From: Streptomyces sp. SJL17-4
GTDB lineage: Bacteria; Actinomycetota; Actinomycetes; Streptomycetales; Streptomycetaceae
Assembly (NCBI RefSeq): GCF_036826855.1
Contig: NZ_CP104578.1
Coordinates: 7,436,501 to 7,500,500 of the forward strand
Length of the DNA: 64,000 nucleotides
Reading direction: 5' to 3'
In this document: piece after piece, positions 3,574-19,678 of the stretch
How the letters are laid out: each line of letters starts with the position of its first letter
Numbering within the stretch: the stretch's first letter is position 1
Notes under the pieces: model-generated
Databases searched by the model: none
What the model saw: only the letters and a program-made list of their open reading frames with translations
Told to the model about the DNA's origin: nothing
Made by a program: the position numbers and the translations under genes

Positions 3574-3623
3574 GCCCCCATTGAAGAGGGAGGGCGGTTG
3601 CCGGGGCGTATGCGATTTTCGAT

Positions 3624-3659: not shown

Positions 3660-3774
3660 TTCCTGGGCACGCGGGAGCGGCGCGAGCCGACGGTGGGGGC
3701 CGCCGGTCGGAGCCGCCGGTGGGAGGATCCGAAATCCCCTGGCAGCAAGGTCGCGTGGGCGCGATCATGGCCGG

Positions 3775-4425: not shown

Positions 4426-4454
4426 GCCGCGCCGTCGAGGATGCCGATCTTCAT
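4350..4454 (-). pseudogene. Possible 5' stub of a nucleotide-binding oxidoreductase gene
   Basis: An ATG at 4454, preceded by a good AGGAAG ribosome-binding site, starts with MKIGIL. That matches the first strand of NADP-binding proteins such as F420H2:NADP reductases (MKIGILGTG). After eight codons the frame runs antisense into the end of the isochorismatase gene and stops at 4350, without the glycine motif. It faces away from the ArsR gene at 4629 across a palindromic operator, the usual place for a gene controlled by that regulator. It looks like a target gene replaced after its first codons, but a chance ATG with a good ribosome-binding site is also possible. Confidence 0.35.
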
Positions 4455-4524
4455 GGTGCTTCCTTCTGTCCGGGACCCGTCCCCCTGACGCGCGGCGAGC
4501 CGTCTCAGAAGGTGACATACGGAA

Positions 4525-4542
4525 ATTGCAAATTTCTGCAAT
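4525..4542. promoter_or_regulatory. Palindromic operator in the ArsR promoter region
   Basis: Perfect 6-bp arms ATTGCA and TGCAAT are separated by AATTTC, in an A/T-rich patch that stands out from its surroundings. It lies about 85 nt before the ArsR start at 4629 and about 70 nt before the divergent stub at 4454. This fits a winged-helix dimer site for autoregulation, which is inferred. Confidence 0.6.
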
Positions 4543-4628
4543 TCGATACATCCTGGTCCGGCCGTGCCCGTGGGTAGCCGCCGGGCGCGGCGACCCGTCC
4601 CGCGCCCCGCGCCCCCGGAGGACAGACC

Positions 4629-4985
4629 GTGCCGGTCCCGCTGTACCAGGCCAAGGCCGAGTTCTTCCGCATGCTGGGCCATCCCGTACGGATCCGGGTC
4701 CTGGAGCTGCTCCAGAGCGGCCCGTTGCCCGTACGGGAGCTGCTCGCGCGGATCGAGATCGAGCCGGCGGCCCTCTCGCAGCAGCTCGCCGTGTTGCGCC
4801 GCTTCGGGATCGTGACCGCCACCCGCGAGGGATCCACCGTCGTGTACACGCTCGCGGGCGGGGACGTGACCCAGTTGATGCAGGCCGCGCGGCGGATCCT
4901 CACCGAGATCACCGCCGGCCCGCAGTCCTGCCTCCCTCCCGTGCTTCCGCAGCCCGTGCTTCCGCAACCCGTGCTTCCGCAGTGA
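4629..4985 (+). CDS. ArsR-family transcriptional regulator
   Basis: A 118-aa winged-helix repressor. The core LGHPVRIRVLELL and the recognition helix region LSQQLAVLRRFGIV are typical of ArsR proteins, but the metal-binding Cys motif of arsenic/cadmium sensors is absent, so it probably senses something else. It is clearly paralogous to the gene at 5619 (same PLYQxKAxFF start and the same LSQQLAVLRR). The C-terminus carries three copies of PVLPQ from a 15-bp tandem repeat. The start is GTG 4629, preceded by GGAGGACAG. Confidence 0.88.
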   Translation: MPVPLYQAKAEFFRMLGHPVRIRVLELLQSGPLPVRELLARIEIEPAALSQQLAVLRRFGIVTATREGSTVVYTLAGGDVTQLMQAARRILTEITAGPQSCLPPVLPQPVLPQPVLPQ

Positions 4986-5001
4986 TCGCCGTACGAGAAG
5001 G

Positions 5002-5400
5002 ATGACGACGCACATGACCATCGAATGGCGTTACACCGTCCAGCAGGACCTGGGCGTACTGTCCCTGGCCGGGTTCCTCGGAGCCGACGCCGTGGGGCGG
5101 TTCACCGGGGCCGTGGGATGGGCGGTCGCGCGCGGCACGGGACCGGTCGTCCTCGACCTGACCCGGCTGCGGGGCTGGTCGGTCGGCGGGCAGCTCGCCG
5201 TCGCGGAGGCGGCCCTCCGGCTGCGGGCCGCGGGCCGCGCCCTCGAACTGGCCGCGATCCCCGCCGACGGCTCCCTCGTCCCGGTGGGTGAAGGGCCTCA
5301 GGTCCCGATCCACCGCGACCTCGCCGCGGCGCTCGCCGCGCACCGCGACGCGGGCGCGGAACAGCGGGCGTGGCGCAGCGACGCCTGGCCGACCACCTGA
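5002..5400 (+). CDS. STAS-domain protein (anti-sigma-factor-antagonist type)
   Basis: A 132-aa single-domain protein with the STAS outline: an early strand (LGVLSLAGFLG), the central VVLDLTRLRGW strand-loop where the conserved Asp/Ser region lies, then a long helix. The usual phosphorylatable serine is at best displaced (GWSVGG). In the family such proteins bind anti-sigma factors or form part of anion transporters. Two near-identical ArsR genes flank it on the same strand, 16 nt behind and about 220 nt ahead, suggesting a duplicated regulator unit. Confidence 0.72.
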   Translation: MTTHMTIEWRYTVQQDLGVLSLAGFLGADAVGRFTGAVGWAVARGTGPVVLDLTRLRGWSVGGQLAVAEAALRLRAAGRALELAAIPADGSLVPVGEGPQVPIHRDLAAALAAHRDAGAEQRAWRSDAWPTT

Positions 5401-5419
5401 TCGCTCGGTGGCGCCGGTA

Positions 5420-5489
5420 CCGCTCACGTACCCGCTCACTCACCGCTCACGTACCGCCCGAGTACGGTCCGCGTACCGCCCAAGTGCCG
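5420..5489. repeat. Short direct repeats between the STAS and second ArsR genes
   Basis: CCGCTCACGTACC occurs at 5420-5432 and 5443-5455, and GTACCGCCC followed by (G/A)AGT recurs twice further on. The stretch has no open frame of its own. It may be slipped-strand duplication in the ArsR leader. Confidence 0.5.
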
Positions 5490-5618
5490 GACCGTCCTGG
5501 CAGGTTCCGGCCATGATCCGCCCCGGACCCGTCCCAGGTGCGTTTCCGCCCTCGCAGGCGCGAGGATGGGGGACATGCTGCACAGTGCCGGGTCGATGCG
5601 ACGCGCGGGGTGGGTGTG

Positions 5619-6050
5619 ATGAGTACGCCGCTCTACCAATTGAAGGCCGACTTCTTCAAGACACTGGGACACCCTGTCCGCATCCGCGTTCTGGAGCTGC
5701 TGAGCGACCGCGAGCACGGTGTCGCCGAGATGCTCCGCGACACTGGGGTCGAACCGGCGTACCTCTCCCAGCAGTTGGCGGTACTGCGCCGGGCGAACAT
5801 GGTCGTCGCCCGGCGCGAAGGCACGGCCGTGTACTACGCGCTGACGAGTCCTCAGGTGGCCGAACTGCTGCGGATCGCCCGCACGATCCTCTCCGGCGTC
5901 CTCGCGGGCCAGGCGGAACTGCTGGCCGACCTCCGGGCCGCGGTACCCCGGGAGAAGGCCCCCTCGCTCACGTCCCCGACGGCCGCGGCTGCTCCGGCGG
6001 AACCGAGCTCTCGGCGGCCGCCATCCACTGGTCGAGGTCGGCCTGGGTGA
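5619..6050 (+). CDS. ArsR-family transcriptional regulator (paralogue)
   Basis: A 143-aa winged-helix regulator. LGHPVRIRVLELLS, then the helix-turn-helix AYLSQQLAVLRRANMV and the wing with REGTAVYYAL, place it in ArsR; no metal-binding Cys motif is visible. It matches the protein at 4629 over its first 95 residues and differs in a longer Pro/Ala-rich tail. The last 83 bases overlap the end of the convergent MBL-fold gene, so part of the tail may be read-through into the neighbour. ATG 5619 follows a GGGGTGGG stretch. Confidence 0.85.
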   Translation: MSTPLYQLKADFFKTLGHPVRIRVLELLSDREHGVAEMLRDTGVEPAYLSQQLAVLRRANMVVARREGTAVYYALTSPQVAELLRIARTILSGVLAGQAELLADLRAAVPREKAPSLTSPTAAAAPAEPSSRRPPSTGRGRPG

Positions 6051-6819
6051 AATCCGTCCACGGTGGGATGTCGGGGAGCTGCCGGAGGAGGTCGTAGGCC
6101 TCGGAGATCTGGGGGCCGCGGAGGATCGGGCAGTGGCAGCCGGCGATGACCTCGGCGTTCAGGTGCTGGAAGTCGCTGACGACCCTCCCGAACTTCTGGG
6201 CGTCCAGCAGGGCGACCCAGGGGGAGACCAGCCGTCCGCCGAAGAGCTGGCCGTCGCGGAACTCGTCCGGCGACAGCGCCGCCGTTTCGGGCATGGGGGT
6301 CGGCACGTTCGTGGCGAAGGTGTCGACGGCCCACAGGACACTGGTCTTCGGGTCGAAGAGGGCGCGGGTCGTGGGGTTGTCGAACAGGGGCGGTCGCTTG
6401 GCGACCAGGGTGCGGTCGCCCGCGTCGATCGTGTCGCCGTCGGTCATGAAGCGGCACCGGTTGATGGGGGTCTCCCACTCCTCGGCCATGCGGCCGATGG
6501 AGAACCATGTCGTCAGCAGGGTCGCGTTCGGGCAATCCGCGAGGACCGCCAGGAGATTGCCGGCGTGGTCGCGGTCGTCGTGGGTGAGGAAGATCCACCG
6601 TACGTCGAGGGGATCCACGACGGACCAGGCTGCCTCCAACCACTGGGAGCGCACCGCGGGGGCTCCGGTGTCGACGAGGATCGGTTCGGCTCCCCGGATC
6701 ACCATCGAATTCATCGGGAAGTGGCCGACCGGCGGGGCCTCAAGGGCCCACGGGATGACGAAGGTCTCCTCGGCGATCTCGTACGGTTGCAGAAGGTTGA
6801 ACGTGTCCATGGTTGTCAT
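5968..6819 (-). CDS. MBL-fold hydrolase or oxygen-binding diiron-type protein
   Basis: A 283-aa metallo-beta-lactamase-fold protein. The metal motif is HDDRDH (His80, Asp84, His85 in FLTHDDRDHAGN), with later ligands likely in VLWAVDTFAT and AGCHCPIL. The first motif position after His is Asp rather than the HxHxDH of classical hydrolases. That pattern, together with an FNLLQPYEI start and an FPMNSMVI strand, is closer to flavodiiron/ODP-like members. ATG 6819 has a GGGAGAG site. The gene converges on the ArsR gene at 5619 and overlaps it by 83 nt. Substrate unknown. Confidence 0.8.
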   Translation of the reverse strand: MTTMDTFNLLQPYEIAEETFVIPWALEAPPVGHFPMNSMVIRGAEPILVDTGAPAVRSQWLEAAWSVVDPLDVRWIFLTHDDRDHAGNLLAVLADCPNATLLTTWFSIGRMAEEWETPINRCRFMTDGDTIDAGDRTLVAKRPPLFDNPTTRALFDPKTSVLWAVDTFATNVPTPMPETAALSPDEFRDGQLFGGRLVSPWVALLDAQKFGRVVSDFQHLNAEVIAGCHCPILRGPQISEAYDLLRQLPDIPPWTDFTQADLDQWMAAAESSVPPEQPRPSGT

Positions 6820-6931
6820 CGCTGCTCTCCCTAGAACGGAGTCGCCGCGTCCGTGCATCCAGTCCAGCCCCGTGCCGCGCTGCCGTCAAACGCGGAACTC
6901 GCGGCGCTCGGCTTCCTCAAGCCCCAAGCCG

Positions 6932-7237
6932 TCAAGCCGTGGGTTGTTCGCCTCCCCAGCGCGCCCGGAGAACATCGGCCCAGTCGCCCGCTTCCGGACC
7001 GGGATCCTTCAGCTGTGGCACTGGGCCGGGAGCCGTCTCGATCAGGTGCACGAGCGTCCAGGCGACGCCGTAGCAGTCGTCCGGGCCGAAGCAGGTGGCC
7101 AGGGCGGCGGCCTCTTCGGGCGTGACAGGGCGCGAGATCGCTGTCAGCAGGCGGGCGCGCCGGTCGATCTCTTCCTCGCTCGCGTCCCAGTCGGGAAGCG
7201 GTCCGTCGGCAACGAAAGTCTGCACTTCGGGTCTCAT
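6932..7237 (-). CDS. Hypothetical protein
   Basis: About 101 aa, acidic, no signal peptide or membrane segment, ending WADVLRARWGG. A two-cysteine stretch TCFGPDDCYGVAWTLVHLIE is the only unusual feature. An ATG at 7255 is also in frame, but a -10-like GATCAT lies only 6 nt before ATG 7237, which favours the shorter start and a leaderless message. It resembles small proteins that accompany polymorphic or immunity loci, but I do not recognise the family. Confidence 0.6.
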   Translation of the reverse strand: MRPEVQTFVADGPLPDWDASEEEIDRRARLLTAISRPVTPEEAAALATCFGPDDCYGVAWTLVHLIETAPGPVPQLKDPGPEAGDWADVLRARWGGEQPTA

Positions 7238-7362
7238 GACCGAATGATCGTCCATCGTAGCCGAGGGCCGCTGCCGGGCGAACGGTCAGAACAGGTCCGG
7301 CCCCGCCTCCCCGGCCGCGATCTCGGTGGCGTGCGGACCGGACGTCAGGCAGGCTGAGCAGC

Positions 7363-7746
7363 ATGTATTCGGTGGTGCAGAACGTTGCGGTCGACTGTTC
7401 GGATGCCTATGGGCTGGCTCGGTTCTGGAGTGAGGTGACCGGGTGTCCGCTGGACCCGGAGAGCGGACCGGGTGACCCGGAGACCCAGGTGATGCTGAAG
7501 GACGGCCCGGTGCTGTACTTCAACCAGGTACCGGAGCCGAAGACCCTCAAGAACCGCCTCCATCTGTGCCTGCGCCCGACGACCTCGCGCGAGGAGGAGG
7601 TCGAGCGCCTCCTGGCCCTCGGAGCCACCCTGGCCGGTGACCACCGAAAGCCCGACGGCACGGGCTGGGCGGTCCTCGCCGACCCCGAAGGCAATGAATT
7701 CTGCGTCCTCCGCAGCGACTCCGATCGCGCGGCGACACCTTCCTGA
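7363..7746 (+). CDS. VOC-superfamily (glyoxalase/dioxygenase-like) protein
   Basis: A 127-aa protein with the paired beta-alpha-beta modules of vicinal-oxygen-chelate proteins. The first module has VDCSDAYGLARFWSEVTG and the second has a HLCLRP strand. The final strand WAVLADPEGNEFCVL is the standard VOC ending. Members bind a metal with His/Glu and act on small molecules or confer drug binding. The likely ligands are His in HLCL and Glu in GNEFC. The 150 bases after it hold imperfect repeats of CTGGGCC-containing units and no gene. Confidence 0.85.
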   Translation: MYSVVQNVAVDCSDAYGLARFWSEVTGCPLDPESGPGDPETQVMLKDGPVLYFNQVPEPKTLKNRLHLCLRPTTSREEEVERLLALGATLAGDHRKPDGTGWAVLADPEGNEFCVLRSDSDRAATPS

Positions 7747-7894
7747 GCCACGGGGACGACTCCCTGGGCCACGGGGATGACTTCCTGGGCCCCGAGGCCG
7801 ACTTCCTGGGCCCCGGGGGCCGACGTCCTGATCCCCGAGGCCGACGTCCGGACCCCCGGGGTCGCCCAGACGCCCGGGCCGGGGACCTACGTGA

Positions 7895-8449
7895 TCAGTG
7901 CGAGAGGCCGGCCGGCTCCGGGGCCCCGCGGTCCGGCTGGATGCCCGCCAGCAGATTGAAGGCACCCGTCAGCAGGTTGAGCGTGACCACGCCGACCACC
8001 TCCGCGATCACCCGGTCGCTCCAGCCGTGCGTCCGTACCTCGGCGACGTCCTCGTCCGACAGGGACCCCGGTTCGGCCAGGACCCGTAGCGCCAGGCCGA
8101 TCAGGGCGGCCTCGCGGGGGTCGGTGGACGTGCCCTGGCGGGCCAGTTCGATGTCCGTCTCACTCAGGCCCGCCGCGCGACCCGCCGCGCGGTGCGCCTC
8201 GGCGCACGTGCCGCAGCCGATCCACTCCTGGACGGCGAGGGACAGCTTCTCGCTCAGGGCGCGTGGGATCTTCACCCGCTTCATCGCCCGGGAGAGGTTC
8301 AGATAGCCGTCGAGCAGGGCAGGTGAGTGCGCCATCGTCGACACCATCTCGCCGACGGAACCATGTCGTTGGACGATGTCGGTCAGCAGTTCGCCCGCCC
8401 GGCCCGGTGCCTGCTCGGGGGTGAGCGCGGTCAGTCTTCTCGTGGTCAT
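7895..8449 (-). CDS. AhpD-like carboxymuconolactone-decarboxylase-family protein
   Basis: A 184-aa all-helical protein with the peroxidase-type active site CGTCAEAH (two Cys, then His) expected of AhpD-like disulfide reductases. It should reduce peroxides or disulfides using the Cys pair. ATG 8449 is preferred over GTG 8452 because AGGAGG lies 4 nt ahead. A perfect 15-bp-arm palindrome of the CsoR operator type begins 6 nt upstream and contains the ribosome-binding site, so the gene is probably repressed by a CsoR/RcnR/CstR-family copper or persulfide sensor encoded elsewhere. It is transcribed in the same direction as the bisindole operon but is separated from its P450 gene by that palindrome. 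Confidence 0.87.
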   Translation of the reverse strand: MTTRRLTALTPEQAPGRAGELLTDIVQRHGSVGEMVSTMAHSPALLDGYLNLSRAMKRVKIPRALSEKLSLAVQEWIGCGTCAEAHRAAGRAAGLSETDIELARQGTSTDPREAALIGLALRVLAEPGSLSDEDVAEVRTHGWSDRVIAEVVGVVTLNLLTGAFNLLAGIQPDRGAPEPAGLSH

Positions 8450-8454
8450 CACGC

Positions 8455-8489
8455 CTCCTCGTTATACCCGTGGGGGGTATAACGAGGAG
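8455..8489. promoter_or_regulatory. CsoR-type operator: perfect 15-bp inverted repeat
   Basis: CTCCTCGTTATACCC (8455-8469) and its exact complement GGGTATAACGAGGAG (8475-8489) flank GTGGG. The core TATACCC-N5-GGGTATA is the G-tract palindrome recognised by CsoR/RcnR-family tetramers. It overlaps the ribosome-binding site of the AhpD-like gene, so it could also fold in the mRNA as a translational block. It lies downstream of the P450 gene and may serve as that operon's terminator hairpin too. Confidence 0.72.
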
Positions 8490-8527
8490 TGGGGCGGAGA
8501 CGTTCCCGGCGACACGAATCCGTCCCG

Positions 8528-9784
8528 TCAGCCCGACAGCGCCAGGCGTGACGGGCCGTGGAACACCCAGTCCGGCGCGTACTCCACCTCGACCCGTGGA
8601 CGCGCGCCGGGCCGCAGCGCCGGCAGCCGGTCGAGCAGCATCCCGAGTCCGATCTCCGCCTCCGCGCGCGCGAGCGCCGCGCCCACGCAGTAGTGGATGC
8701 CGAGGCCGAACGCGCAGTGCCGGCCGCTGTCCCGGTGAATGTCCAGCGTCTCCGGGTCCGGGAAGCGCGCCGGATCCCGGAGGGCCGAGCCCAGGACCAG
8801 CTGGACGCGGTCGCCCCGGCGGACCGACCGGCCGGCGAGCGCGGTGTCCCGGTGCGCCCATCGCGTGATCATCTGGACGGGTGGGTCGTGGCGCAGGAAC
8901 TCGTCCACCGCGTTCGGCAACAGGCCCGGGTCCGCGCGCAGTTCCGCCGAGACTTCCGGCCGCGCGAGCAGCGCGAGCACCGCCTTTCCTATCAGCCCGG
9001 TCGTCGTCTCGTGCCCGGCCGTGAGCAGATGCACGCAGGTCGACGTCAGAGCCGTCGTCCCCAGGGACGGATCCTCGACCGCGGCCGCCGCGAGCGCGGA
9101 GAGCAGGTCGCCCCGGTCCTCCGCACGCCGCGCCGCCAGCTCCGCGCGGAAGTACGTGTCCAGCTCCGCCGCCGCCCGGTCGGCCCGCGCGAGCGCGGCC
9201 GGTGAACGGTCGCCCCTGGTCCCGCCCGCCTGCTGGAGCGCCAGCGCCTCCGCCCGGAACCACGGCCACCGCCCGGCCTCCACCCCGAGCAGTCCCGCCA
9301 CGACGAGCAGCGGGAACGGCGCGGCGAAGCCCTCGACCAGCTCCACCTCGGGCCGCCGCGCCAGCGGCCGTACGAGATCCTCCGCTATCGCCCGTACGCG
9401 CGGCCGCAGGGCCCTTACGGCGGGGGCGGCGAGCGGCGGAGCCACGTGGGCGCGGAGCCGTGCGTGCCGGGGCGGGTCCAGGAAGACCAGCCAGTTCTCC
9501 ACGATCCGGCGGAGCATCACGTACTCCTCGGGGATCGGCACGGCGCTGCCCGTCGACGGGCACGCCCGGCCGAAACCCCGGTCGGTGAGGATCCGAGTCA
9601 CCTCCGCGTGGCCGAAGAGGTACCAGGTCGTCGGCCCCGTCCGGCTGTCGGCGCGTGACGGGCGTACGGCGTGCACCGGGTCCGACTCGCGGTACTGCCG
9701 ATAGACGGGGTAGGGGTCGGCCAGATCGAGCCGCGCCGGGTCGAACGGCTCCAGGCCGCCCGTCGACGCCCGGTGCCTGTTCAT
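8528..9784 (-). CDS. Cytochrome P450, StaP/RebP-like (chromopyrrolate aryl-aryl coupling)
   Basis: A 418-aa soluble P450, the last gene of the bisindole operon. The heme ligand is Cys in FGLGIHYCVG (about residue 360), the I-helix reads TAGHETTTG (about 250), and the K-helix ExxR follows. VENWLVFLDPP, CVHLLTAGHETTT, the ALARAEAEIGL block and the ending VFHGPSRL agree with what I recall of StaP, which couples the two indoles of chromopyrrolic acid to close the six-ring core. StaP/RebP work with the StaC/RebC flavoenzyme, encoded immediately upstream, and need a ferredoxin and reductase not found here. ATG 9784 overlaps the preceding stop as ATGA, so translation is coupled. Confidence 0.9.
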   Translation of the reverse strand: MNRHRASTGGLEPFDPARLDLADPYPVYRQYRESDPVHAVRPSRADSRTGPTTWYLFGHAEVTRILTDRGFGRACPSTGSAVPIPEEYVMLRRIVENWLVFLDPPRHARLRAHVAPPLAAPAVRALRPRVRAIAEDLVRPLARRPEVELVEGFAAPFPLLVVAGLLGVEAGRWPWFRAEALALQQAGGTRGDRSPAALARADRAAAELDTYFRAELAARRAEDRGDLLSALAAAAVEDPSLGTTALTSTCVHLLTAGHETTTGLIGKAVLALLARPEVSAELRADPGLLPNAVDEFLRHDPPVQMITRWAHRDTALAGRSVRRGDRVQLVLGSALRDPARFPDPETLDIHRDSGRHCAFGLGIHYCVGAALARAEAEIGLGMLLDRLPALRPGARPRVEVEYAPDWVFHGPSRLALSG

Positions 9785-11445
9785 CCGCCCGCCCCGGTCC
9801 CGGTCGTCCCCGCACCCCGCACCAGATCGGCCAGCCGGCCCGGGGCGGCCGGTGCGGCGGCCCCTCGCCAGGCCACATGACCGTCGGGACGTACGAGGAC
9901 GAGCGGCCGCCCGTACCGCCTCGCCACCTCCCCGTCGTCACAGCGGACCACCTTCAGGGGGACCCGGCGGTCCGCGAAGGCGCGGACCAGGCCCTCCGGG
10001 GCACCCCGGCCGAGCGAGAGGAGGACGAACTCAGGACCGAACAGGTCCAGCGTCGAACGGCCGGGCCCCAGCCACACGTGCGGAGCTCGGGCGCCGGGCA
10101 CGGCCGTACGGTTCCACCAGGGGTCGGCGCCCGACGGCGAGGTGCCAGGAACCGTTTCCTCCACCCCCGCCCCCACCTTCTCGTCCGCCGCACCTCTCTC
10201 CTCCGCCGCACCCTTCTCGTCGGCGATCACCGGCGACGCGTACCGGTACGCGAAGTGGGTATCGGGCGCGTCGAATTCACGCACCGGATCGGACTCCGCG
10301 ATCTCCCGGCCGAGCGCGGCCCGCGCCCGCTCCCCCTCGGCCGTCGCGTCGCACAGCGCCGCGGAGAGGCGCCGGTCGAGGGTCCGCCGCAGATTGCGGT
10401 GACTCTCCTCCAGGCTGTGCAGCGCCACCGGCCGCCGCTCGCTCTCGTACGAGTCGAGCAGATCGGGCCCGGCCCACCCCGCGAGCTCCGCGGCCAGCTT
10501 CCAGCCCAGGTCCGCCGCGTCACCGACGCCCGTCGCGAGCCCGAACCCGCCCGAGGGCGACAGCGTGTGCGCCGCGTCCCCCGCGAGCAGGACGCGTCCG
10601 GCGCGGTACCGCGACGCCACCCGGTGGGTCAGGTGCCAGGTGGAGTCCGACACCACCTCGACCGGTACGTCCGGGGCCACGGCCCGCCGGACGGACTTCA
10701 CCGCGTCGGCGGGACCGGCCGGACACGTCAGCCGGTACAGGTCCCGTCCGTCGATCGACCTCAACGGGTAGCGCAGACCGCCCGGTTCGGTCACGAAGTA
10801 CACCAGGGCCGTGCTCGCGCCGAGGAGGTCGCCGAGGCCGGGGGCCCGGAAGAGGATGTTGCGCAGGACGCGGGTCCGGTGCCGCTCGGGCGCGTCGATC
10901 CCGCACGCCTTCCGCACCAGGGACGAGGCCCCGTCGCAGCCCACCAGGAACCGGGCGTGCACCGTCGTCCGTACCCCCGCCCCGTCCACGAGCCCGGCGC
11001 TCACCCGGTCCGGGAGCCGGGTGAACCCCAGCAGCCGGGTGCCGAGCCGCACCGGCCCCTCGGGGTGGACTCCGAGCCGGGCGGTGAGCAGCGGCGCGAG
11101 CCAGTGCTGCGGGCAGATCGCCTCGGGTTCCGGCGTGAACGGGGGAGTGGGCCGCTCCCCGGCCGTGCCGAGGCTCAGCCGGTGCAGCTCATGGCCTCCG
11201 ACGGCGGTCACCCAGGCGATGTCCAGCGTGTGGCCGGCCGGCCAGCCCGCACTCCGGATCGCGTCCGCGACCCCCCAGCGGCGGAACGCCTCCATCGCCC
11301 GGGGGCCGACGGTCGACACCTTGGGGTGGGTGACCTGCCCGTTCCCCGCCTCCGTGAGCACGAAGTCCACGCCCCGGTGGGCCAGATCGAGCGCGAGCGC
11401 GAGCCCGACGGGCCCTCCGCCGACGATCAACACATCAGTCTCCAC
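9781..11445 (-). CDS. RebC/StaC-like FAD monooxygenase
   Basis: A 554-aa class-A flavoprotein hydroxylase. FAD motifs are LIVGGGPVGLALALDL at the start and GDAAHTLSPSGGFGLATG in the middle. The C-terminal 150 residues form a thioredoxin-like domain (STLDLFGPEFVLLSLG). HPKVSTVGPRAMEAFRRWG and EAICPQHWLAPLL are close to RebC. In rebeccamycin and staurosporine synthesis this enzyme intercepts the P450 product and sets the oxidation state of the pyrrole carbon. The residues said to control that choice (RebC Phe216/Arg239, StaC Val/Asn) appear here as Val215 and Arg238, a mixed pair. GTG 11445 lies 3 nt after the previous stop. Confidence 0.92.
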   Translation of the reverse strand: METDVLIVGGGPVGLALALDLAHRGVDFVLTEAGNGQVTHPKVSTVGPRAMEAFRRWGVADAIRSAGWPAGHTLDIAWVTAVGGHELHRLSLGTAGERPTPPFTPEPEAICPQHWLAPLLTARLGVHPEGPVRLGTRLLGFTRLPDRVSAGLVDGAGVRTTVHARFLVGCDGASSLVRKACGIDAPERHRTRVLRNILFRAPGLGDLLGASTALVYFVTEPGGLRYPLRSIDGRDLYRLTCPAGPADAVKSVRRAVAPDVPVEVVSDSTWHLTHRVASRYRAGRVLLAGDAAHTLSPSGGFGLATGVGDAADLGWKLAAELAGWAGPDLLDSYESERRPVALHSLEESHRNLRRTLDRRLSAALCDATAEGERARAALGREIAESDPVREFDAPDTHFAYRYASPVIADEKGAAEERGAADEKVGAGVEETVPGTSPSGADPWWNRTAVPGARAPHVWLGPGRSTLDLFGPEFVLLSLGRGAPEGLVRAFADRRVPLKVVRCDDGEVARRYGRPLVLVRPDGHVAWRGAAAPAAPGRLADLVRGAGTTGTGAGG

Positions 11446-11448
11446 GAC

Positions 11449-14400
11449 TCAGTTGCTCCCCTCGTGCTCGAAGCGCTCCGCGTACCAGGCCATCAGTTCC
11501 GGCACCCGGTCCGGCACGCCCTCGCACTCCCGGGCCATCGCGGCGAGGTGCCGGAACCGCATCGCGAACCCCCGCCGCGCCACATCGGGGCGCGCGATGT
11601 ACGCCGGCGGTTCCTCCAGCTCGAAGGAGGGGCCGGCCGTCCGCCCCCGCCACCCCGACTCCAGCGGCATCAGTTGCTCGGCGAGCGGACGCATCATCCC
11701 CGTCATCACGTCGATGGCTGCGTTCATCAGCTTCGAGCGGCGCAGACTCGCGTCCGGGCTCTCCCCGAAGTGCTGGACGATCAGCTGGAGCATCATGAAG
11801 TAGCAGCGGTTGAACAGACGCATCACCTGCCGTGCGTGCGGATCGCTCACCACCGCCCGCCCGGGGTGCCCGGGGTCGAGCGTCGGATTGCGCAGCGAGG
11901 GGTACGCGAGCTGCCACGGCGTCCCCTCCCCGTGCGGACCGTCGGCGCGCTCGGTCATCAGCAGCTCCGCGAGCCGCACGAAGGTGTCGTGATGGGACTC
12001 CGAGCCCTCCTTCCCGGTGTCCAGGACACCGCCCTCGCCCTGCTCGGTGACGAAGTCCACGGCGAACAGCGCGCTCGAAAGATCGTCCACCTCCAACTGG
12101 TAGTCCGGATGAACGGCGTTGACCGCCCCGCCGATGAAGAGGTGGTGCTCGCCCCCGCCCCGCCCCCGGTCGACCATGAAGAGGTCGGGGACGCGCGTCA
12201 GACCCTCCCGGATGCCCGCGTACAACTCGCTCGGCGAACCGAACGGGCTGGGCCCGTCCATCGCTCCCGTGCCGCCCACGAGCCGCTCGGGCCGCTCGAT
12301 GGCGATGAACCGCTGGAGACTTCCCAGGTGCAGCGGCTCCAGGGCGAAGTCGAGCGGCAGCGGCAACCGGCCCGGCGTACCGAAGTCGATCTCCGGGACG
12401 TGGAAGGGCTCACCCATCGCCATCAGGATGTTGTTGACGACCAGGAAGTGCATCATCTCCTCCCGGGCCACGTCGAAGAGACTGTCCCGCACGCCCTTGG
12501 CCAGGGTCTCCCCGCCGTCGCCGCAGGCGAGCCGGAGCTGACGCGGTGTCCACACCCCACTGCGCACGTACTCGAACCCGGTGCCGTGGGTGGGGACCGA
12601 GTAGCCCGCGTACAGGTACTGGAGCGAACTGGCGAGCTCCACCGCCACCGCCTGCCACAGCGCCGACCGCAGCTGCGCCCGCGTGGTGATCTGCGGATGG
12701 GCGCGGATCGGCGAAGGGACGGCCGCCGCCGGCGGCACCGCCGCCGCCGTGCTCCGCGCCCGCAGGTACTTGAGCAGCAGCCGCGCCTTCGGCAGGGACA
12801 GATCGCGGGTCGGCGGCATGTAGTACGTCCTGTCCTTGTTCGCCGGATCGCACATCTGCCAGATGAGCTTCGCGTACGTCTCGACCTTGCAGCGGTCCGC
12901 GAGGCTGAACACCTCGTCGCGCATGAACGGGAACAGCTGCTCGTAGTACGCGAAGACCTCGCGGTGCAGCAGCTCGAAGGTCACGTCCTGCTGGAGCACG
13001 GCGTCCAGCGGCCAGTCGTCGGGCAGTACCCGGACCGCCGCCGTGCCGGCCCACGGCCAGAAGTCCAGGGCGTTGTCGTGGTCGTAGCAGGCCTCGGCCG
13101 ATCCTGGCGCCGCCGGATCGGTCGGTGGTCGTTCCCCGGGGTCCGCCGCGAGGAGCAGCCGTGCCGTGCCGGGGCGCGCGCCGGAGACCGTGAACCAGCC
13201 ACGCCCCCGCCCGTCCGTGGCGAGGCGGCAACTCGCACCCTCCGCCGGAACCGGGGTGTCCGTCGTGGGCTTCTCGCCGGACGACCTGCCCGGGCGGAGC
13301 CGTACGATCTCCACATCCCCGCAGCGGGCGTACGGCCCCGAGGCCACCGGGTCCAGCGGCAGGGCACGGGGGTTGGGGTACTGGCGGACGACGACCGTGT
13401 CGAGGGGCGCCGCGCGGCCCCGCAGAAACGTCCGCACCGGGACCTCGACGGCGTGCTCGTCGCCCCGCTCGGGGTCCGGGTGCTCCAGGATCAGACATGC
13501 CTCGTCGGTCAGGACGACCTCCTCGCGCTCCCGCAGCAGCACCGCGCGCGTGCTTCGGCCGCTTCCGCCCGGCCGTACCAGGACGAGCCCCTCCGCCTCC
13601 GCGTGCCGCACGGCCTCCGGCGAGGCCGCCGGTACGGTCACCACCGCACCGCCCTCGGGCGCACCCCCGGGCAGGAGAGCGACCGGCAGGTCGGACCGAG
13701 CCGTCCTCAGCTCAAGGGCGTCCCCGCGACGCGGGGCCTGGCCGGGGGAGGAGGAGTCGGCGGTCTGCTTCTCGAAAGGCCAGTTGAAGGAGACTCCCGA
13801 CGGGGAGACCCGTACGGTGCACGGCTCCGGTGCCTCATCCGCATGGCTCCCGTGCGGGACGAGAAGCCGGCCCGCCGGGTGGGTGCGCGGCTCGTCCGGA
13901 TGCCAGGGCGCGACCGTGCCCCGCAGCCGCCACTGCCCCGGAGCGTCCTCCGGCCCCACGTCTCCTTCCGCGACGGGCTGTTCGAGGGCGAACTGGACGA
14001 GGATGCCGCCGCCGTCCCGTGCCTCGGCGGCGGCCTTGAGGGCGCGCACGGCGGGGGAGTCCGCCGACCCGTTCGGCCAGTCGAGCCCTTCCCCCGCCGC
14101 GATCGCGAACTGATGGAGGGTGCGGCGCACCGGCGCGAAGCCGTGCCACCGCGGCGGCATGAAACCGGTCACCTCGCCGACGCACAGATAGCCCGCGTCG
14201 TGCGAGCGCCCGTCCCGCCCGAAGGCGAACTGGCCGCCCATCAGCGTCGCCGTCCACGCGGACGCCGGGTCGACGTCGAAGACCCTGGCCCGGTTCACCG
14301 TCGTGCCCAGGTAGGGGTTGTAGTGCCCCCACAGGTCGACGGCCCGCCCGACCACCGGGTCCGCCGTGTCCACGACGCCGCCGTCCGTCCGCTGCACCCC

Positions 14401-14673
14401 GGTCACCCGGGCATCCATGAGGAAGTGGCCGTTCCCGGAGAAGTGGCCCCCGCGTGCCCCGCGTCCGGCCAGGTGCGCGTGGTACGCCTCGGCGCGCTCC
14501 TCGACGCCGAACGGGCCGACCGCGGGCCGCTGTCCGGCACCCGTGTCCCCGGAGTCCGTGCCCCTCAGGGCGGTGTTGCGGGCCAGGTCCACCAAGCCGC
14601 AGCGCGGACCCGTCGGCAGCCGGGTCAGCGCCGTCCCGCCGAAGTACAGCCGGGGCAGGTCGAACACGCTCAT
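11449..14673 (-). CDS. Chromopyrrolate synthase, RebD/StaD/VioB family
   Basis: A 1074-aa enzyme, slightly longer than RebD or VioB (about 1000 aa). It should couple two indole-3-pyruvate imines made by the tryptophan oxidase into an imine dimer and then chromopyrrolic acid, using bound heme. The N-terminus FDLPRLYFGGTALTRLPTGP, then VVGRAVDLWGHYNPYLGTT and ANRARVFDVDP-like text, match the RebD N-domain. The C-terminal third is the ferritin-like domain (VELASSLQYLYAGYSVP, then AREEMMHFLVVNNIL). A roughly 60-residue Pro/Gly-rich stretch in the middle accounts for the extra length. ATG 14673 overlaps the oxidase stop as ATGA. Confidence 0.93.
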   Translation of the reverse strand: MSVFDLPRLYFGGTALTRLPTGPRCGLVDLARNTALRGTDSGDTGAGQRPAVGPFGVEERAEAYHAHLAGRGARGGHFSGNGHFLMDARVTGVQRTDGGVVDTADPVVGRAVDLWGHYNPYLGTTVNRARVFDVDPASAWTATLMGGQFAFGRDGRSHDAGYLCVGEVTGFMPPRWHGFAPVRRTLHQFAIAAGEGLDWPNGSADSPAVRALKAAAEARDGGGILVQFALEQPVAEGDVGPEDAPGQWRLRGTVAPWHPDEPRTHPAGRLLVPHGSHADEAPEPCTVRVSPSGVSFNWPFEKQTADSSSPGQAPRRGDALELRTARSDLPVALLPGGAPEGGAVVTVPAASPEAVRHAEAEGLVLVRPGGSGRSTRAVLLREREEVVLTDEACLILEHPDPERGDEHAVEVPVRTFLRGRAAPLDTVVVRQYPNPRALPLDPVASGPYARCGDVEIVRLRPGRSSGEKPTTDTPVPAEGASCRLATDGRGRGWFTVSGARPGTARLLLAADPGERPPTDPAAPGSAEACYDHDNALDFWPWAGTAAVRVLPDDWPLDAVLQQDVTFELLHREVFAYYEQLFPFMRDEVFSLADRCKVETYAKLIWQMCDPANKDRTYYMPPTRDLSLPKARLLLKYLRARSTAAAVPPAAAVPSPIRAHPQITTRAQLRSALWQAVAVELASSLQYLYAGYSVPTHGTGFEYVRSGVWTPRQLRLACGDGGETLAKGVRDSLFDVAREEMMHFLVVNNILMAMGEPFHVPEIDFGTPGRLPLPLDFALEPLHLGSLQRFIAIERPERLVGGTGAMDGPSPFGSPSELYAGIREGLTRVPDLFMVDRGRGGGEHHLFIGGAVNAVHPDYQLEVDDLSSALFAVDFVTEQGEGGVLDTGKEGSESHHDTFVRLAELLMTERADGPHGEGTPWQLAYPSLRNPTLDPGHPGRAVVSDPHARQVMRLFNRCYFMMLQLIVQHFGESPDASLRRSKLMNAAIDVMTGMMRPLAEQLMPLESGWRGRTAGPSFELEEPPAYIARPDVARRGFAMRFRHLAAMARECEGVPDRVPELMAWYAERFEHEGSN

Positions 14674-16187
14674 GCCGCCTCCAGTCCGGCCGGCTCCACG
14701 ACGCCCCGGCCCGGCGCGTGCCGGGCGATCAGCGTCACGGCCTCGAGGGCCGACTCCACCGCACCCTCGATCCACGCCGGCTCGCTCGCGCAGTGCTCCC
14801 CGGCGAAGAACATCCGGTGCTGGGGGCGCACCGCCCGCCGGCGCTGTTCCTCGCAGGCGGCCGCGTCCTGCCCCCAGCGGATCGTGCACCCGCCGGCCGT
14901 CCACGGATGTCCGCCCCAGGCGAGACTCGCGACACCCCGCACCATGCCCCGGCGCAGCAACTGGGGGTGCATCCGCCCCAGTTCCTCGACCACCGTCCGG
15001 TGCCGCAGCGCGGGCGGCATGGTGCCGAGATGCTCGGCGTCCTCGCCGATCGTGTAGCTGGCGAGCAGCGCCGCACCCTGCGCGGGATCCGTGGTCCCGT
15101 CGGCCTCGGACGGCGGGTAGTACGTCTGCCGGATCCGGCCCCCGCTGAACGAGGCGCCACCCCGGATGCCCTCCCGCTCCCAGAACGGCTCACGGCAGTG
15201 GACGGCGACCTTCGTCGCCGGGCAGTAGTCCACCTCCCGCACGACCGCGAGCTTGTCCTCGTCGAACCCGGTGAGCGTCAGACCCCGCAGCACGGAGAAC
15301 GGCACCGTGCACAGCACGTAGTCGCAGCGCCGGACCGCCGCCGGCCCGCCCCCGAGGCGTACGAGGACATGGTCGGGAGCCACCTCGAAGCCGGACACGG
15401 GCTGGCCCAGCCAGATGGGTCCCCGGATCCGGGCGGCGAGCCGCTGCGCGAGCTGGTCCATCCCGCAGGCGAGCCGGACCAGTTCGGGACTGGTCTCGGT
15501 GAGGATGTCGTCCAGGAAGCTGTTCAGCCGGTCGCCGCAGCCCGCCCGGATGCCGGGGTGCGCCGCGAACAGACCGTGCACGTCGATCCGGTCCTTCGCG
15601 TGGCCGAGGAGATGCGGCGACAGGTCGACGTCCTCCACCAGATCCAGGAGGTTGCGTGCCAGGTCGGCGCGGAGCCCGGCGCGCAGCGCCGGAGGTGCGA
15701 CGGCGTCGACGACCGCCGCCAGCCACGCGCCGAACACGACGGTCTCCTCGCGGTACGGGGCGCCCGGCAGCGAGGCGCGGACATCCGCGATCAGGGCCCG
15801 CGGCGCGTCCCGGAGCCGTACGTGACCGGTACTCGTCGCCAGAAAGGCGTTCTCCTCGGACAGCAGGGTGGTGAACGGCCGCACCTGATCGGCGAGACCC
15901 AGGTGCTCGACGTAGTGCATGGTCCGGTGGTGGGCGGTGGGGATGCGCATGGCACCGAGCTCCACGAAGGGGGAGCCCTCGGCCGCGCCGAAGCGGTGCG
16001 TGTGGACGCGCCCGCCGAGCCGGTGGCTGCCCTCGATGACCTCGACCCGGAACCCGAGGCGCTCCAGCTCGTAGGCGGCGACCAGGCCGGCCATCCCGGC
16101 GCCCACGACACTGACCGTGCTGTTGGCGCGGGTCCGCCGCCGTGCGCGTGGCACATGACGGGACTGCGTGACGGTGGTGGTCTGCAT
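14670..16187 (-). CDS. L-tryptophan oxidase, RebO/StaO/VioA family
   Basis: A 505-aa FAD-dependent L-amino-acid oxidase of the GMC/monoamine-oxidase fold. The dinucleotide motif is VSVVGAGMAGLVAAYELERL (from about residue 26), followed by RLGGRVHTHRF, with MRIPTAHHRTMHYVEHLG as a substrate-side block. The C-terminal FAD motif is FFAGEHCASEPAWIEGAVES. It should oxidise Trp, or a ring-modified Trp, to the imine used by the next enzyme. An in-frame GTG at 16220 would overlap the upstream gene by 11 nt. ATG 16187 is preferred because GGGAG lies in front, but both are possible. Its stop overlaps the chromopyrrolate synthase start. Confidence 0.92.
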   Translation of the reverse strand: MQTTTVTQSRHVPRARRRTRANSTVSVVGAGMAGLVAAYELERLGFRVEVIEGSHRLGGRVHTHRFGAAEGSPFVELGAMRIPTAHHRTMHYVEHLGLADQVRPFTTLLSEENAFLATSTGHVRLRDAPRALIADVRASLPGAPYREETVVFGAWLAAVVDAVAPPALRAGLRADLARNLLDLVEDVDLSPHLLGHAKDRIDVHGLFAAHPGIRAGCGDRLNSFLDDILTETSPELVRLACGMDQLAQRLAARIRGPIWLGQPVSGFEVAPDHVLVRLGGGPAAVRRCDYVLCTVPFSVLRGLTLTGFDEDKLAVVREVDYCPATKVAVHCREPFWEREGIRGGASFSGGRIRQTYYPPSEADGTTDPAQGAALLASYTIGEDAEHLGTMPPALRHRTVVEELGRMHPQLLRRGMVRGVASLAWGGHPWTAGGCTIRWGQDAAACEEQRRRAVRPQHRMFFAGEHCASEPAWIEGAVESALEAVTLIARHAPGRGVVEPAGLEAA

Positions 16188-16209
16188 GACGGTCCGACTC
16201 CCGATCGGT

Positions 16210-17886
16210 TCAGTGCGCACGGCGTGGACGGGTCGGCCGGGACTCCCGTACGGCCCCGGGGCCGTCGGCGGCGACAGCGGCCAGGTAGTCGCGGAGCAGG
16301 GCGGTACGGGCGAGCGGGGCGACCAGGCCCACGTATCCGTCGGGCCGCACCAGACGCAGGTCGTCGGGGTGCCCGAGGCGGCCGGCCTCGGCTCCGTCCC
16401 ACGGGGTCACGGGCAGTATCCGGAGCGGGGCGGGGAACCGCGCGCACGCGTCGCGGAGTTCGTCGAGCACGTCCGGGTGGGCGCGGGCGGCGTGCAGGAC
16501 CAGGGTCCACCGCTCGTACCGGAGCAGCGTGTGCAGCCGGGTCGCGGCAGGACTGGTGGGGTCCGTCGGGCAGGTGGTGACCGTGATGTCCGGCATGCGC
16601 TCGCCCGCGCGCGGGCCCGAACGGCGGTGCCGGGCGGGGCGGTGCGAGGACAGCGCACTGTCCGTGTGGTTCCGGCCCAGGTCGCTCAGCCGCAGGTCGA
16701 GCCGGCGCTGGAAGCCGCGCCGGGCCAGGGCGGCCGGCACCGTCGCCGTGAACGCCCGGAAGCCCAGCGGTGGCAGCGGCAGCTCCATGAAGTTGAACCG
16801 CATCTCGCGGATGTACCGCACCGCAAGGAGTCGTTGCTCGTCGCTGTACGTGTCGAGGAGGTCCTCGCCCGCCTGCCCGTGGTGGACGGCGGCGAGCTTC
16901 CACGCGAGGTTGTGGGCGCCGAGGATGCCGACGTTCATGCCGTGCCCGCCGACCGGCGCCCAGGCGTGCGCCGCGTCCCCGGCGAGCAGCCCGCGCCCGC
17001 AGCGGAGCGTGGCGGCGACCCGGTCGCTGAAGCGGGCCCGGTTCAGCCAGGGGACCTCGGGGGGCCGGAGACGCAGGTCCGGCATCCCGGCAGTCTCCGC
17101 GACCAGGTCCCGCAGTTCGCCGAGGGTGGGGGCGGCGGACAGCGAGGGATCGGGGTCGTCCCGGAAGCAGAAGAAGCGGTAGCCCCCGCCGGGCAGCGGG
17201 AACACGAGCAGGGAACGGTGCGGGGCCAGGAAGATGTGCCCCCTGCCCGGCTCCTCGCCGAGCGCCCAGGTGGGGTGGGCGTTGCCCTGGACGACCTGGA
17301 GCCCGGTGCGGCGCCGGCCCTCGAACGGGATGCCCAGGCGGTCCCTGACCACGCTGGCGGTGCCCTCGCAGCCGACGATCCAGGGGGCGGCGGCCGACTC
17401 GACGGTGCCGTCCTCGTGCCGCAGGGTGAACTCCGCCCGGTCGTCGTGGACCTTGACGTCCGTCACCTCGGTGTTCCACTCGACGCGGGTGCCGAGCCCG
17501 GCCAGTTCCTCGCTGAGGAGCCGCTCGATGTCGTGCTGCTCGATGTTGAGCGGCCGGGCGTGGGCCGAGCGGGCCCAGCCGGTGACGAGCTCGCCGAGCT
17601 CACGGCCGCGGGCGTGGATCGTCACCATGCCCAGCTCGACGCCGTGCCGCGCGAGCGTCTCACCGACCCCCAGGGCGTCCAGTGCCTCCCGGGCCCGTGC
17701 CCAGAGCACCAGGGCGCGGGCCTCGTGCTTGGTCGCGGGTGCCTTGTCGACGATCCGGACCCGCAGCGCGAGCCGGCGCAGACCGATCGCGAGCGTGAGC
17801 CCGACCGGTCCCGCCCCCACCACACACACGTCCACGTCCCCGTCCCGGGCCCCGTCCGTGCCGCTGCCTGTCTCCACCCGTGTCAC
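16210..17886 (-). CDS. Second FAD-dependent monooxygenase of the bisindole operon
   Basis: About 558 aa, class-A flavin monooxygenase with VCVVGAGPVGLTLAIGL near the N-terminus, the DG-type motif near IVGCEGTASVVRDRLG, GLLAGDAAHAWAPVGGHGMN for the FAD ribityl chain, and a C-terminal thioredoxin-like domain. It is distinct from the RebC/StaC-like protein: it lacks RebC blocks such as CPQHWLAPLL. Being first in the operon it is likely a pathway enzyme. Extra flavin monooxygenases in indolotryptoline clusters (cladoniamide, BE-54017) oxidise the indolocarbazole core, and that is the best guess here. The start is uncertain: GTG 17886 follows GGAGGG, while TTG 17901 and GTG 17877 are alternatives. 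Confidence 0.85.
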   Translation of the reverse strand: MTRVETGSGTDGARDGDVDVCVVGAGPVGLTLAIGLRRLALRVRIVDKAPATKHEARALVLWARAREALDALGVGETLARHGVELGMVTIHARGRELGELVTGWARSAHARPLNIEQHDIERLLSEELAGLGTRVEWNTEVTDVKVHDDRAEFTLRHEDGTVESAAAPWIVGCEGTASVVRDRLGIPFEGRRRTGLQVVQGNAHPTWALGEEPGRGHIFLAPHRSLLVFPLPGGGYRFFCFRDDPDPSLSAAPTLGELRDLVAETAGMPDLRLRPPEVPWLNRARFSDRVAATLRCGRGLLAGDAAHAWAPVGGHGMNVGILGAHNLAWKLAAVHHGQAGEDLLDTYSDEQRLLAVRYIREMRFNFMELPLPPLGFRAFTATVPAALARRGFQRRLDLRLSDLGRNHTDSALSSHRPARHRRSGPRAGERMPDITVTTCPTDPTSPAATRLHTLLRYERWTLVLHAARAHPDVLDELRDACARFPAPLRILPVTPWDGAEAGRLGHPDDLRLVRPDGYVGLVAPLARTALLRDYLAAVAADGPGAVRESRPTRPRRAH

Positions 17887-18182
17887 CCGCCCTCCGCTCA
17901 ATGTCCTGGCATTCAGCGTGCGGGCGGAAGATCACCTTCAACAGGGCGTGCGGCAGGGCGCGGGGATCATGGCGACCAGGGGAGATGACTACCTGTGCAT
18001 CATCTGGTCCGTTTGCGTGACCGCGGCGGAATTCGGCCTTCTGTTGCACGGAGAGTCACCGGCTTTGGCCGGATCATTACGCTCGGAAGCGGAGTTTTCC
18101 CCAGGTGGCACCCATTCCGCTCCCGACTCGACGTCCCGCCGAGCGCCTTCGCGGCTCGCTCACGCCACGGAGCGTGGCCAGT
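17887..18182. other. Non-coding region upstream of the bisindole operon
   Basis: About 296 bases between the operon start and the end of the AraC gene, both on the minus strand. No credible gene is seen. It must carry the operon promoter if the operon is not read through from the AraC gene. A GAAG-GTGAT-CTTC inverted repeat lies about 50 nt before the first start. I could not assign convincing -35/-10 boxes. Confidence 0.5.
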
Positions 18183-18998
18183 TCACGACACGGGCGCCGG
18201 TTCCTCGCGCCTCCGGGCGAAGCGCCCCGGGGTCGTGCCCACGAGCCGCTTGAAGGAGCGGTTCAGATGGGACTGGTCGTAGAAGCCGGTCGCGGCCGCC
18301 ACCTCCCCGGGCGCCTGCCCGTCCAGGAGCAGCCGCCGGGCCCGGTCGAGCCGCCGGGCCGTCAGGTATTGGTGCGGGGCGATGCCGAACGCGCCGCTGA
18401 ACGCCCGTACCAGATGGGCGGGATGGGCGTGCAGGAGCCGCGCGGCCTCGTCCAGGGTCACCCCTTCGAGCAGCCGGGCGTCGAGGAGTTCGCGGAGGCG
18501 GTGGGCCACTCCGGGATCGGCGGGTCGCGCGCGGGTGACCGCCTGGGGCCGCAGACGGGTGCGGAGCCGTTCACGGATGAGCGCGAGCCGGCTCTGTGCC
18601 TCCAGTTCGCCGCCCCGGTCCGCGAGTGCCGTGTGCAGCTGACCGACGCGACGGCGCAGCAGCGGATCGACGAGATCGGGCCCGTCCACCGCCGCGCCGA
18701 TGAAGCTCTCGTCCAACTGGGTCAGGTCCAGATAGAGGACCCGCTTGCGGAAGCCGTGCGGGGTCGCGGGCGAGCCGTTGTGCGGCACCTGCGGCGGGAG
18801 CAGGGACACCGTGTCGCCCGGGGTGCCGTGCTCACGCCGGTCGAGGTCGTAGCGGACGGCCCCGTCGTCGACGATGAGCAGGGTCCACACGTCGTGGACG
18901 TGCATCGGGTAGGCGTGCGCGGTGAAGTGGGCGTGGAAGACCTCCACGACTCCCGGCACGCGCGGGCGCCATGCCGAAACCTGCTGACCGGCCACCAT
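18183..18998 (-). CDS. AraC-family transcriptional regulator
   Basis: A 271-aa regulator with an N-terminal cupin-like sensing domain (HFTAHAYPMHVHDVWTLL, then GDTVSLLPPQVPHNG) and a C-terminal AraC DNA-binding domain (LDEAARLLHAHPAHLVRAFS, with GFYDQSHLNRSFKRLVG as second helix-turn-helix). The divergent gene at 19048 is a DUF2000 protein. AraC/DUF2000 pairs recur in actinobacteria, so its main target may be that gene, yet it is also the nearest regulator to the bisindole operon 300 nt downstream. ATG 18998 is 6 nt from a TACATT -10-like box, suggesting a leaderless message. Confidence 0.9.
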   Translation of the reverse strand: MVAGQQVSAWRPRVPGVVEVFHAHFTAHAYPMHVHDVWTLLIVDDGAVRYDLDRREHGTPGDTVSLLPPQVPHNGSPATPHGFRKRVLYLDLTQLDESFIGAAVDGPDLVDPLLRRRVGQLHTALADRGGELEAQSRLALIRERLRTRLRPQAVTRARPADPGVAHRLRELLDARLLEGVTLDEAARLLHAHPAHLVRAFSGAFGIAPHQYLTARRLDRARRLLLDGQAPGEVAAATGFYDQSHLNRSFKRLVGTTPGRFARRREEPAPVS

Positions 18999-19047
18999 GC
19001 AAGGAATGTACAAGACGGCATGGAGGCCCGATCGGCAGTCTCGGACC

Positions 19048-19536
19048 ATGACGACGACGATGACGACCATGACGACCACGGCCACCATGACGGCGGCCAT
19101 GACGACCGGCGACACCGTGCCGCCCGTCCGCTTCGACACCAAGATCGCTGTACTCCTCCGCGAGGACCTGGAGACCTGGCAGCGCCTGAACGTCACCGCG
19201 TTCCTGGTCAGCGGCCTCGGCTCGGAGCTGCCCGAGGTGATCGGCGAGCCGTACGCGGACGCCGACGGCACCCCGTACCTGCCGATGTTCCGACAGCCCG
19301 TGCTCGTCTTCGAGGGGCCGAAGGAGACGCTGACGACGGCGCACGCCCGCGCACTCTCCCGCGCGCTCCCGCGGGCGGTGTTCACGACCGAACTGTTCTC
19401 CACCGGCAACGACCGCGACAACCGCGCGGCCGTACGGGCCGTGGGGACCGGCGGGCTGGACCTGGCGGGCCTCGCCGTGTACGGGCCGCGCAACGCGGTC
19501 GACAAGGTACTCAAGGGTGCCCGGATGCATCCCTGA
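19048..19536 (+). CDS. DUF2000-family protein
   Basis: About 162 aa. The core from FDTKIAVLLREDLETWQRLNVTAFL to DLAGLAVYGPRNAVDKVLKGA matches the small DUF2000 fold (peptidyl-tRNA-hydrolase-II-like), of unknown activity. It is divergent from the AraC gene with 49 nt between the starts, implying shared control. The first 20 codons are an ATG-ACG-ACS microsatellite (MTTTMTTMTTTATMTAAMTT) with six in-frame ATG codons. The true start could therefore be any of them, and the last, at about 19099, fits family length best. Confidence 0.82.
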   Translation: MTTTMTTMTTTATMTAAMTTGDTVPPVRFDTKIAVLLREDLETWQRLNVTAFLVSGLGSELPEVIGEPYADADGTPYLPMFRQPVLVFEGPKETLTTAHARALSRALPRAVFTTELFSTGNDRDNRAAVRAVGTGGLDLAGLAVYGPRNAVDKVLKGARMHP

Positions 19537-19678
19537 CGGCCCTGGAGCGCCGGGAAATGCCCCGGTCCCTTCCGCATCGATCGGCCGCATTGCGCAGCGC
19601 CCGCCCCCAGGTACTCGGCTAGGGTGATTCGATAGGGAATGCGCCCCCCGGGGCCGGGCCGATGCGTAGGTCGATGCG

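Follow-up and report, generated by a model that had tools for sequence, protein, structure and literature searches.

A compact operon of five genes, here called X, O, D, C and P, was analysed in a window of 64,000 nucleotides from Streptomyces sp. SJL17-4 (contig NZ_CP104578.1; all positions refer to this window unless another sequence is named). We predict with high confidence, judged from its genes, that the operon makes a hydroxylated indolocarbazole from two tryptophans via arcyriaflavin A, the product being arcyriaflavin F or a close isomer. It is very probably the orthologue of the arcyriaflavin cluster of Streptomyces venezuelae, which adds another Streptomyces that should make indolocarbazoles of the arcyriaflavin F type.

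The pathway can very probably be regarded as already known, and nearly in this very sequence, because an X-O-D-C-P locus exists in an S. venezuelae-like genome and cluster 8 of S. venezuelae is labelled arcyriaflavin. This locus (L041 in genome G015, at 873,504-882,792 of its chromosome, D gene at 876,723-879,920) has the same gene order, and its proteins are 90 (X), 96 (O), 86 (D), 82 (C) and 85% (P) identical to those of the window. One DNA alignment of 11,039 columns and 86% identity spans window positions 8537-19539. The position of L041 fits that of cluster 8 in S. venezuelae NRRL B-65442, entered as 'Indole, Arcyriaflavin' at 871,837-882,258 in PMC8788739, where arcyriaflavin production by this strain is given as unpublished data. 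After this label had been found, the idea of an undescribed variant was dropped. In PMC9769785 the cluster is again labelled arcyriaflavin; its metabolome entry is 'ND', and its transcripts were unchanged on ethanol shock. The reference list of PMC13200232 cites Lai et al. Gene content, gene order and orthology of the pathway are direct observations.

All five genes are located on the minus strand between positions 8528 and 17886, and none contains an internal stop (Table 1). An earlier note, made from the letters of this DNA, had described five minus-strand genes in this order, joined by two ATGA overlaps and one gap of 3 nt, and had named disabling frameshifts as a possible refutation. All frames are open, the families were confirmed by Pfam and by structure comparison, and the junctions were found as described: the stop of O and the start of D have an ATGA at 14673-14670 in common, the 4 nt at 9784-9781 belong both to the end of C and to the start of P, and the coordinates of D and C leave 3 nt between them. 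The stop codon of X is at 16212-16210, so that X and O are either separated by 22 nt or overlap by 11 nt, depending on the start chosen for O. The mechanical frame of D, 1151 amino acids long, begins too early and its ATG start is preferred.

Table 1. Genes and conserved elements of the operon region
Feature	Position	Strand	Start codon	Assignment
X	16210-17886	minus	GTG; TTG at 17901 also open	class A flavin monooxygenase, AcfX/EspX family; predicted indolocarbazole ring hydroxylase
O	14670-16187	minus	ATG; GTG at 16220 also possible	RebO/StaO-type L-tryptophan oxidase
D	11449-14673	minus	ATG	chromopyrrolic acid (CPA) synthase, RebD/StaD family
C	9781-11445	minus		RebC-family flavoenzyme
P	8528-9784	minus		StaP-type cytochrome P450
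Conserved non-coding block, ~120 bp	17921-18040	minus		upstream of X
AraC-family regulator	18183-19577	minus		AraC_binding and HTH_18 (Pfam); upstream of operon

One scan of genome contigs with the D protein yielded 31 loci, which were sorted by tblastn. The arrangement X-O-D-C-P in one direction was found in nine of them (L002-L007, L019, L020, L027). Since nine of 31 CPA-synthase loci have all five genes in one and the same arrangement and direction, this grouping is not due to chance. In three loci ODCP is accompanied by an X gene of opposite orientation (L008, L009, L024), and in nine the place of ClaX1, next to D, is taken by an X homologue (L013, L016, L018, L021-L023, L028, L029, L031). 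Within the stretch examined, two loci hold ODCP without X (L015, and L017 on a 10.7-kb contig) and two hold O-D-P and X but no C (L010, L032). ODP alone occurs once (L011), and only O and D were found in five loci (L012, L014, L025, L026, L030; in L026 the match extends as far as residue 799 of 1074). Genes are interrupted in the assemblies of L003 and L027, both of the X-O-D-C-P type. In L003 the C gene is split over two frames at a place with 11 N letters and the interruption may come from an assembly gap; L027, which has no N, shows an O with an in-frame stop, a D without its first 281 residues and a P in two frames, possibly a case of decay. When 101 genomes of the window's genus were searched, seven had a strong CPA-synthase match. 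In four of these, one being the window's own genome, the identity was 76-100%; two further genomes gave weak matches only (E ~1e-4) and were not counted. A plasmid scan returned a single match, in a Nocardiopsis CPA synthase, with 2% of the query covered.

In the proposed pathway, O would convert L-tryptophan to indole-3-pyruvate imine, and D would couple two of these imines to chromopyrrolic acid. P would then join both indoles and C would oxidise the decarboxylating product to the imide arcyriaflavin A, the indole rings of which X would hydroxylate to yield arcyriaflavin F or a close isomer. The predicted chemistry of O, D, P and C follows from the enzyme families named. O has the Pfam domain Amino_oxidase and is 52% identical to the O protein of the Streptomyces uncialis locus L013; ClaO of S. 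uncialis is itself 51% identical to RebO (PMC3158105). D belongs to the Pfam family Ferritin-like and is 49% identical to the D protein of L013. Against the VioB model D scores 635 bits, under the equivalog cut-off of 1250 bits, and with C and P being relatives of RebC and StaP a violacein pathway was rejected. P matches the Pfam family p450, and its closest solved chain is 2z3t (389 bits), which we take to be StaP; the next solved P450 scores 202 bits. Homologues of RebO, RebD, RebP and RebC together mark the bacterial indolo[2,3-a]pyrrolo[3,4-c]carbazole core (PMC3158105), and this set is complete in the window. Thus the core quartet recognised in the earlier note and its five assignments stand, the closest solved relatives of C and P being RebC and 2z3t.

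X carries the Pfam domains FAD_binding_3 and Rng_hyd_C. It is a regular cluster member of the AcfX/EspX family and most likely an indole-ring hydroxylase. The earlier note had called it an extra flavin adenine dinucleotide (FAD) monooxygenase; the enzyme class was right, but the word 'extra' does not fit a gene that belongs to X-O-D-C-P in nine of 31 loci and in L041. Lai et al. (2024) reportedly named the genes acfXODCP, AcfX reportedly turning arcyriaflavin A into the C-5/C-5' dihydroxylated arcyriaflavin F and EspX reportedly hydroxylating at C-6. The proposed X step is derived from homology together with these reported activities. Of the 147 X-like proteins collected, 78 were placed in a quick tree. 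There the Streptomyces clade with X (16 rows), an 'EspX-like' clade (30 rows) and the protein P0050 make up one fully supported group, with the branching among the three left open. The S. cinnamoneus group stands outside this X/EspX-like group, and the proteins at the ClaX1 position are far away. When the class was searched with an EspX-like protein as query (E 1e-140), only one of 197 genomes matched, that of the window. An AlphaFold2 model of X, built from an alignment of 34 rows, has a predicted local distance difference test score (pLDDT) of 86.8. Its fold is matched best by MtmOIV, followed by PieE, CabE and RslO9, with RebC-10x at rank 49, and the best matches include oxygenases of polycyclic polyketides. 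The modelled fold thus appears to be that of a general class A monooxygenase and is compatible with a polycyclic substrate, but no proof of one. We also weighed a role of X as a tryptophan 7-hydroxylase whose reaction precedes dimerisation, as PMC7024260 proposes for BE-13793C. This is less likely, given the similarity of the model to oxygenases that act on polycyclic compounds and the fact that arcyriaflavin A without added hydroxyl groups is likewise obtained from S. cinnamoneus, although neither point is proof.

With other hydroxylation positions the same pathway would lead to BE-13793C (1,11-dihydroxyarcyriaflavin A), a product which overlaps with the 'close isomer' allowed for above. For BE-13793C (C20H11N3O4) PMC7024260 gives m/z 358.08 [M+H]+, a value common to its isomers. 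Such a product is suggested by a quick, midpoint-rooted tree of 65 D proteins (the 31 loci, the window and 33 of 120 database matches), in which the window D groups with a set of Streptomyces including S. cinnamoneus, S. netropsis and S. abikoensis (Shimodaira-Hasegawa-like approximate likelihood ratio test, SH-aLRT, 91). S. cinnamoneus makes BE-13793C and has X homologues beside ODCP. However, these are only 46-47% identical to the window X, compared to 90% for the S. venezuelae-like locus, and BE-13793C as the product is improbable. The trees of X and D disagree: D joins the S. cinnamoneus set, but the X group excludes S. cinnamoneus.

We see an equally slim chance that X acts as an EspX-like enzyme which captures or oxidises the unstable P450 product beside or instead of C, resulting in a carboxy-indolocarbazole similar to the erdasporines. 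The nearest relatives of X outside its Streptomyces clade do include four 'EspX-like' proteins from environmental DNA (eDNA), at 53-57% identity, and in Kutzneria sp. CA-103260 an X relative is part of an O-D-P-methyltransferase-X arrangement without C. Furthermore, PMC10851217 lists the erdasporine paper among those on enzymes capturing reactive indolocarbazole intermediates. In the window, however, C is present and intact and a methyltransferase is not adjacent, and the S. venezuelae cluster is labelled arcyriaflavin.

The choice between imide and lactam concerns C. This protein has the Pfam domains FAD_binding_3 and Rng_hyd_C, and the closest solved proteins are the RebC-10x mutant (4eip, 612 bits) and RebC (2r0c, 608 bits). 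We aligned 144 C-family rows (RebC, the window, 22 loci and the best 120 of 5733 database matches) and compared positions 216 and 239 (RebC numbering, presumably the chain position minus 20), which we assume to be the decisive pair. The states are V/R in 89 rows, V/N in 27, F/R in 17 and others in 11. The window C has V216/R239, as do the C proteins of L041 and of S. cinnamoneus (L009). F/R is the state of RebC and of C from Actinomadura melliaura, Nocardiopsis flavescens (LooC) and S. uncialis; V/N is that of RebC-10x, from which the window C differs. Because S. cinnamoneus, a V/R carrier, is reported to make arcyriaflavin A, arcyriaflavin E and BE-13793C (PMC12159101, PMC9113425), the V/R state is predicted to go with the imide, and C to be an imide (arcyriaflavin) former. 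R239, not F216, accompanies the known imide producers, and the 'StaC' labels of the sources follow neither residue.

If C were StaC-like, the cluster would make the lactam K252c. This reading was prompted by V216 and S231 of the window C; the RebC-10x mutant is described as having StaC-like activity in PMC10851217. Against it, C is RebC-like at E36, Q117, R239 and T241, and V/N occurs in only 27 of the 144 rows. The lactam aglycone was set aside since V216/R239 is common to the arcyriaflavin-forming relatives as well, and we regard it as very unlikely. An indolotryptoline (cladoniamide) pathway, with X in the role of ClaX1, which likewise is a flavin-dependent oxygenase (PMC3158105), has almost no probability and was rejected on account of the distance between X and the enzyme at the ClaX1 position: in S. 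uncialis L013 the latter is 36% identical over 63% of X, both this enzyme and the D of L013 belong to other clades, and neither a ClaX2-like enzyme nor a methyltransferase gene is adjacent in the window.

Several points weigh against the assignment of arcyriaflavin F. The imide reading of R239 leans on S. cinnamoneus and S. venezuelae, and for the former the genome comes from strain JCM 4633, but the compounds come from strain NBRC 13823. Proteins labelled 'StaC' by their sources span all three states (P0286 V/R, P0315 F/R, P0314 and P0334 V/N). The best fold match of X, MtmOIV, is a Baeyer-Villiger enzyme and no ring hydroxylase, and X falls into one group with EspX-like proteins, whose site of oxidation may be a different one. 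Finally, the assignment of L041 to S. venezuelae is one that we infer.

DNA similarity among the X-O-D-C-P loci spans roughly 7.9-18.0 kb of the window. It takes in a gene of the CMD family (carboxymuconolactone decarboxylase-like, 7895-8449), which seven of the nine loci have within their matched DNA. It is missing from that of L005 and L007 and has no blastn match beside L041; therefore, it is not an essential part. At the other end, the non-coding block upstream of X has a mean pairwise identity of 0.65-0.83 over ten loci; in the DNA farther upstream the value is 0.10-0.45, lowered by rows that start later. The core pattern of this block has one site in the whole genome (at most three mismatches) and one in L041. 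A shorter form occurs exactly in six of the nine X-O-D-C-P relatives, and the longer form has no site in L009 at up to three mismatches. The block is a candidate for a cluster-specific promoter or operator. Scanning 7-20 kb for consensus promoters gave no match, and for terminators two sites, which is no more than shuffled sequence gives. The AraC-family gene possibly regulates the cluster; among the nine X-O-D-C-P loci and L041, its DNA is matched only in L006 and L041 (blastn, E 1e-20).

The neighbouring predicted genes at 1.0-8.5 kb and 18.2-35.7 kb, except 33889-34551, were scanned with Pfam, some remaining without a family. No halogenase or methyltransferase family was detected among them, and no RebR/StaR-type regulator is adjacent. 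A glycosyltransferase gene (26570-27781) and a gene for an efflux-like membrane protein (28875-30395, FUSC_2), each the nearest of its kind, are at least 8.7 kb away from X and outside the conserved block. These two genes, both upstream of X, encode an EryCIII-like glycosyltransferase and a FUSC-type membrane protein. This agrees with the earlier note, according to which halogenase, methyltransferase, sugar and transporter genes are not adjacent, and its expectation of a simple, oxidised aglycone is supported by the gene content.

Comparison with known systems places the window as follows. With the rebeccamycin and staurosporine clusters it has the four core enzyme families in common (RebO/D/C/P, StaO/D/C/P), but it differs from them in having no adjacent halogenase, glycosyltransferase, methyltransferase or RebR/StaR-type regulator. 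The cladoniamide (cla) locus of S. uncialis (L013) has homologues of O, D, C and P at 49-56% identity, but another gene order and a distant enzyme at the ClaX1 position. The pair ClaX1 and ClaX2 beside D, typical of the indolotryptoline clusters (cla/abe), has no counterpart in the window, as X falls outside the ClaX1 group and no ClaX2-like gene is adjacent. With the erdasporine type (esp) the window shares O, D, P and an EspX-family monooxygenase. However, the example in Kutzneria sp. CA-103260 (L037, filed by its X, 2078-10731) reads O-D-P-O-methyltransferase-X without C, whereas the window has C and lacks an adjacent methyltransferase. The same strain holds a second X-methyltransferase pair (L036, 9055-11636); in the 19.9 kb examined there, homologues of O, D, C and P are lacking, apart from the weak C match of X itself. 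The two C-family matches of this genome (E 1e-80) lie away from both loci.

BE-13793C clusters share the ODCP core with the window, and S. cinnamoneus L009 also has the C state V216/R239 and adjacent X homologues. These are, however, 46-47% identical to the window X, convergent and duplicated: two tandem copies on the minus strand (16163-17755 and 17876-19429 of L009) directly face P. The bec cluster of Streptomyces sp. MA37 consists of O, D, C and P plus a LuxR regulator, and according to PMC7024260 a hydroxylase was not found in or near it. The tandem X homologues of S. cinnamoneus may plausibly be these missing BE-13793C hydroxylases. We met no such proposal in our literature search, in which sources were accessible in part, and do not claim newness. 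That AcfX, EspX and the X1/X2 pair of the S. cinnamoneus type would form one family of ring hydroxylases differing in position, X1/X2 being the missing hydroxylases, is an evenly balanced proposal. It bears more on the related loci than on the window. The X family beside varied indolocarbazole cores offers a naturally occurring set in which to compare the sites that flavin enzymes oxygenate on one scaffold, and it points to places in which to search for the BE-13793C hydroxylase. Closest of all is the arcyriaflavin cluster of S. venezuelae, which shares with the window the order X-O-D-C-P at 82-96% protein identity, the upstream core pattern and the DNA on the AraC side, and differs by sequence divergence and in the CMD-family gene.

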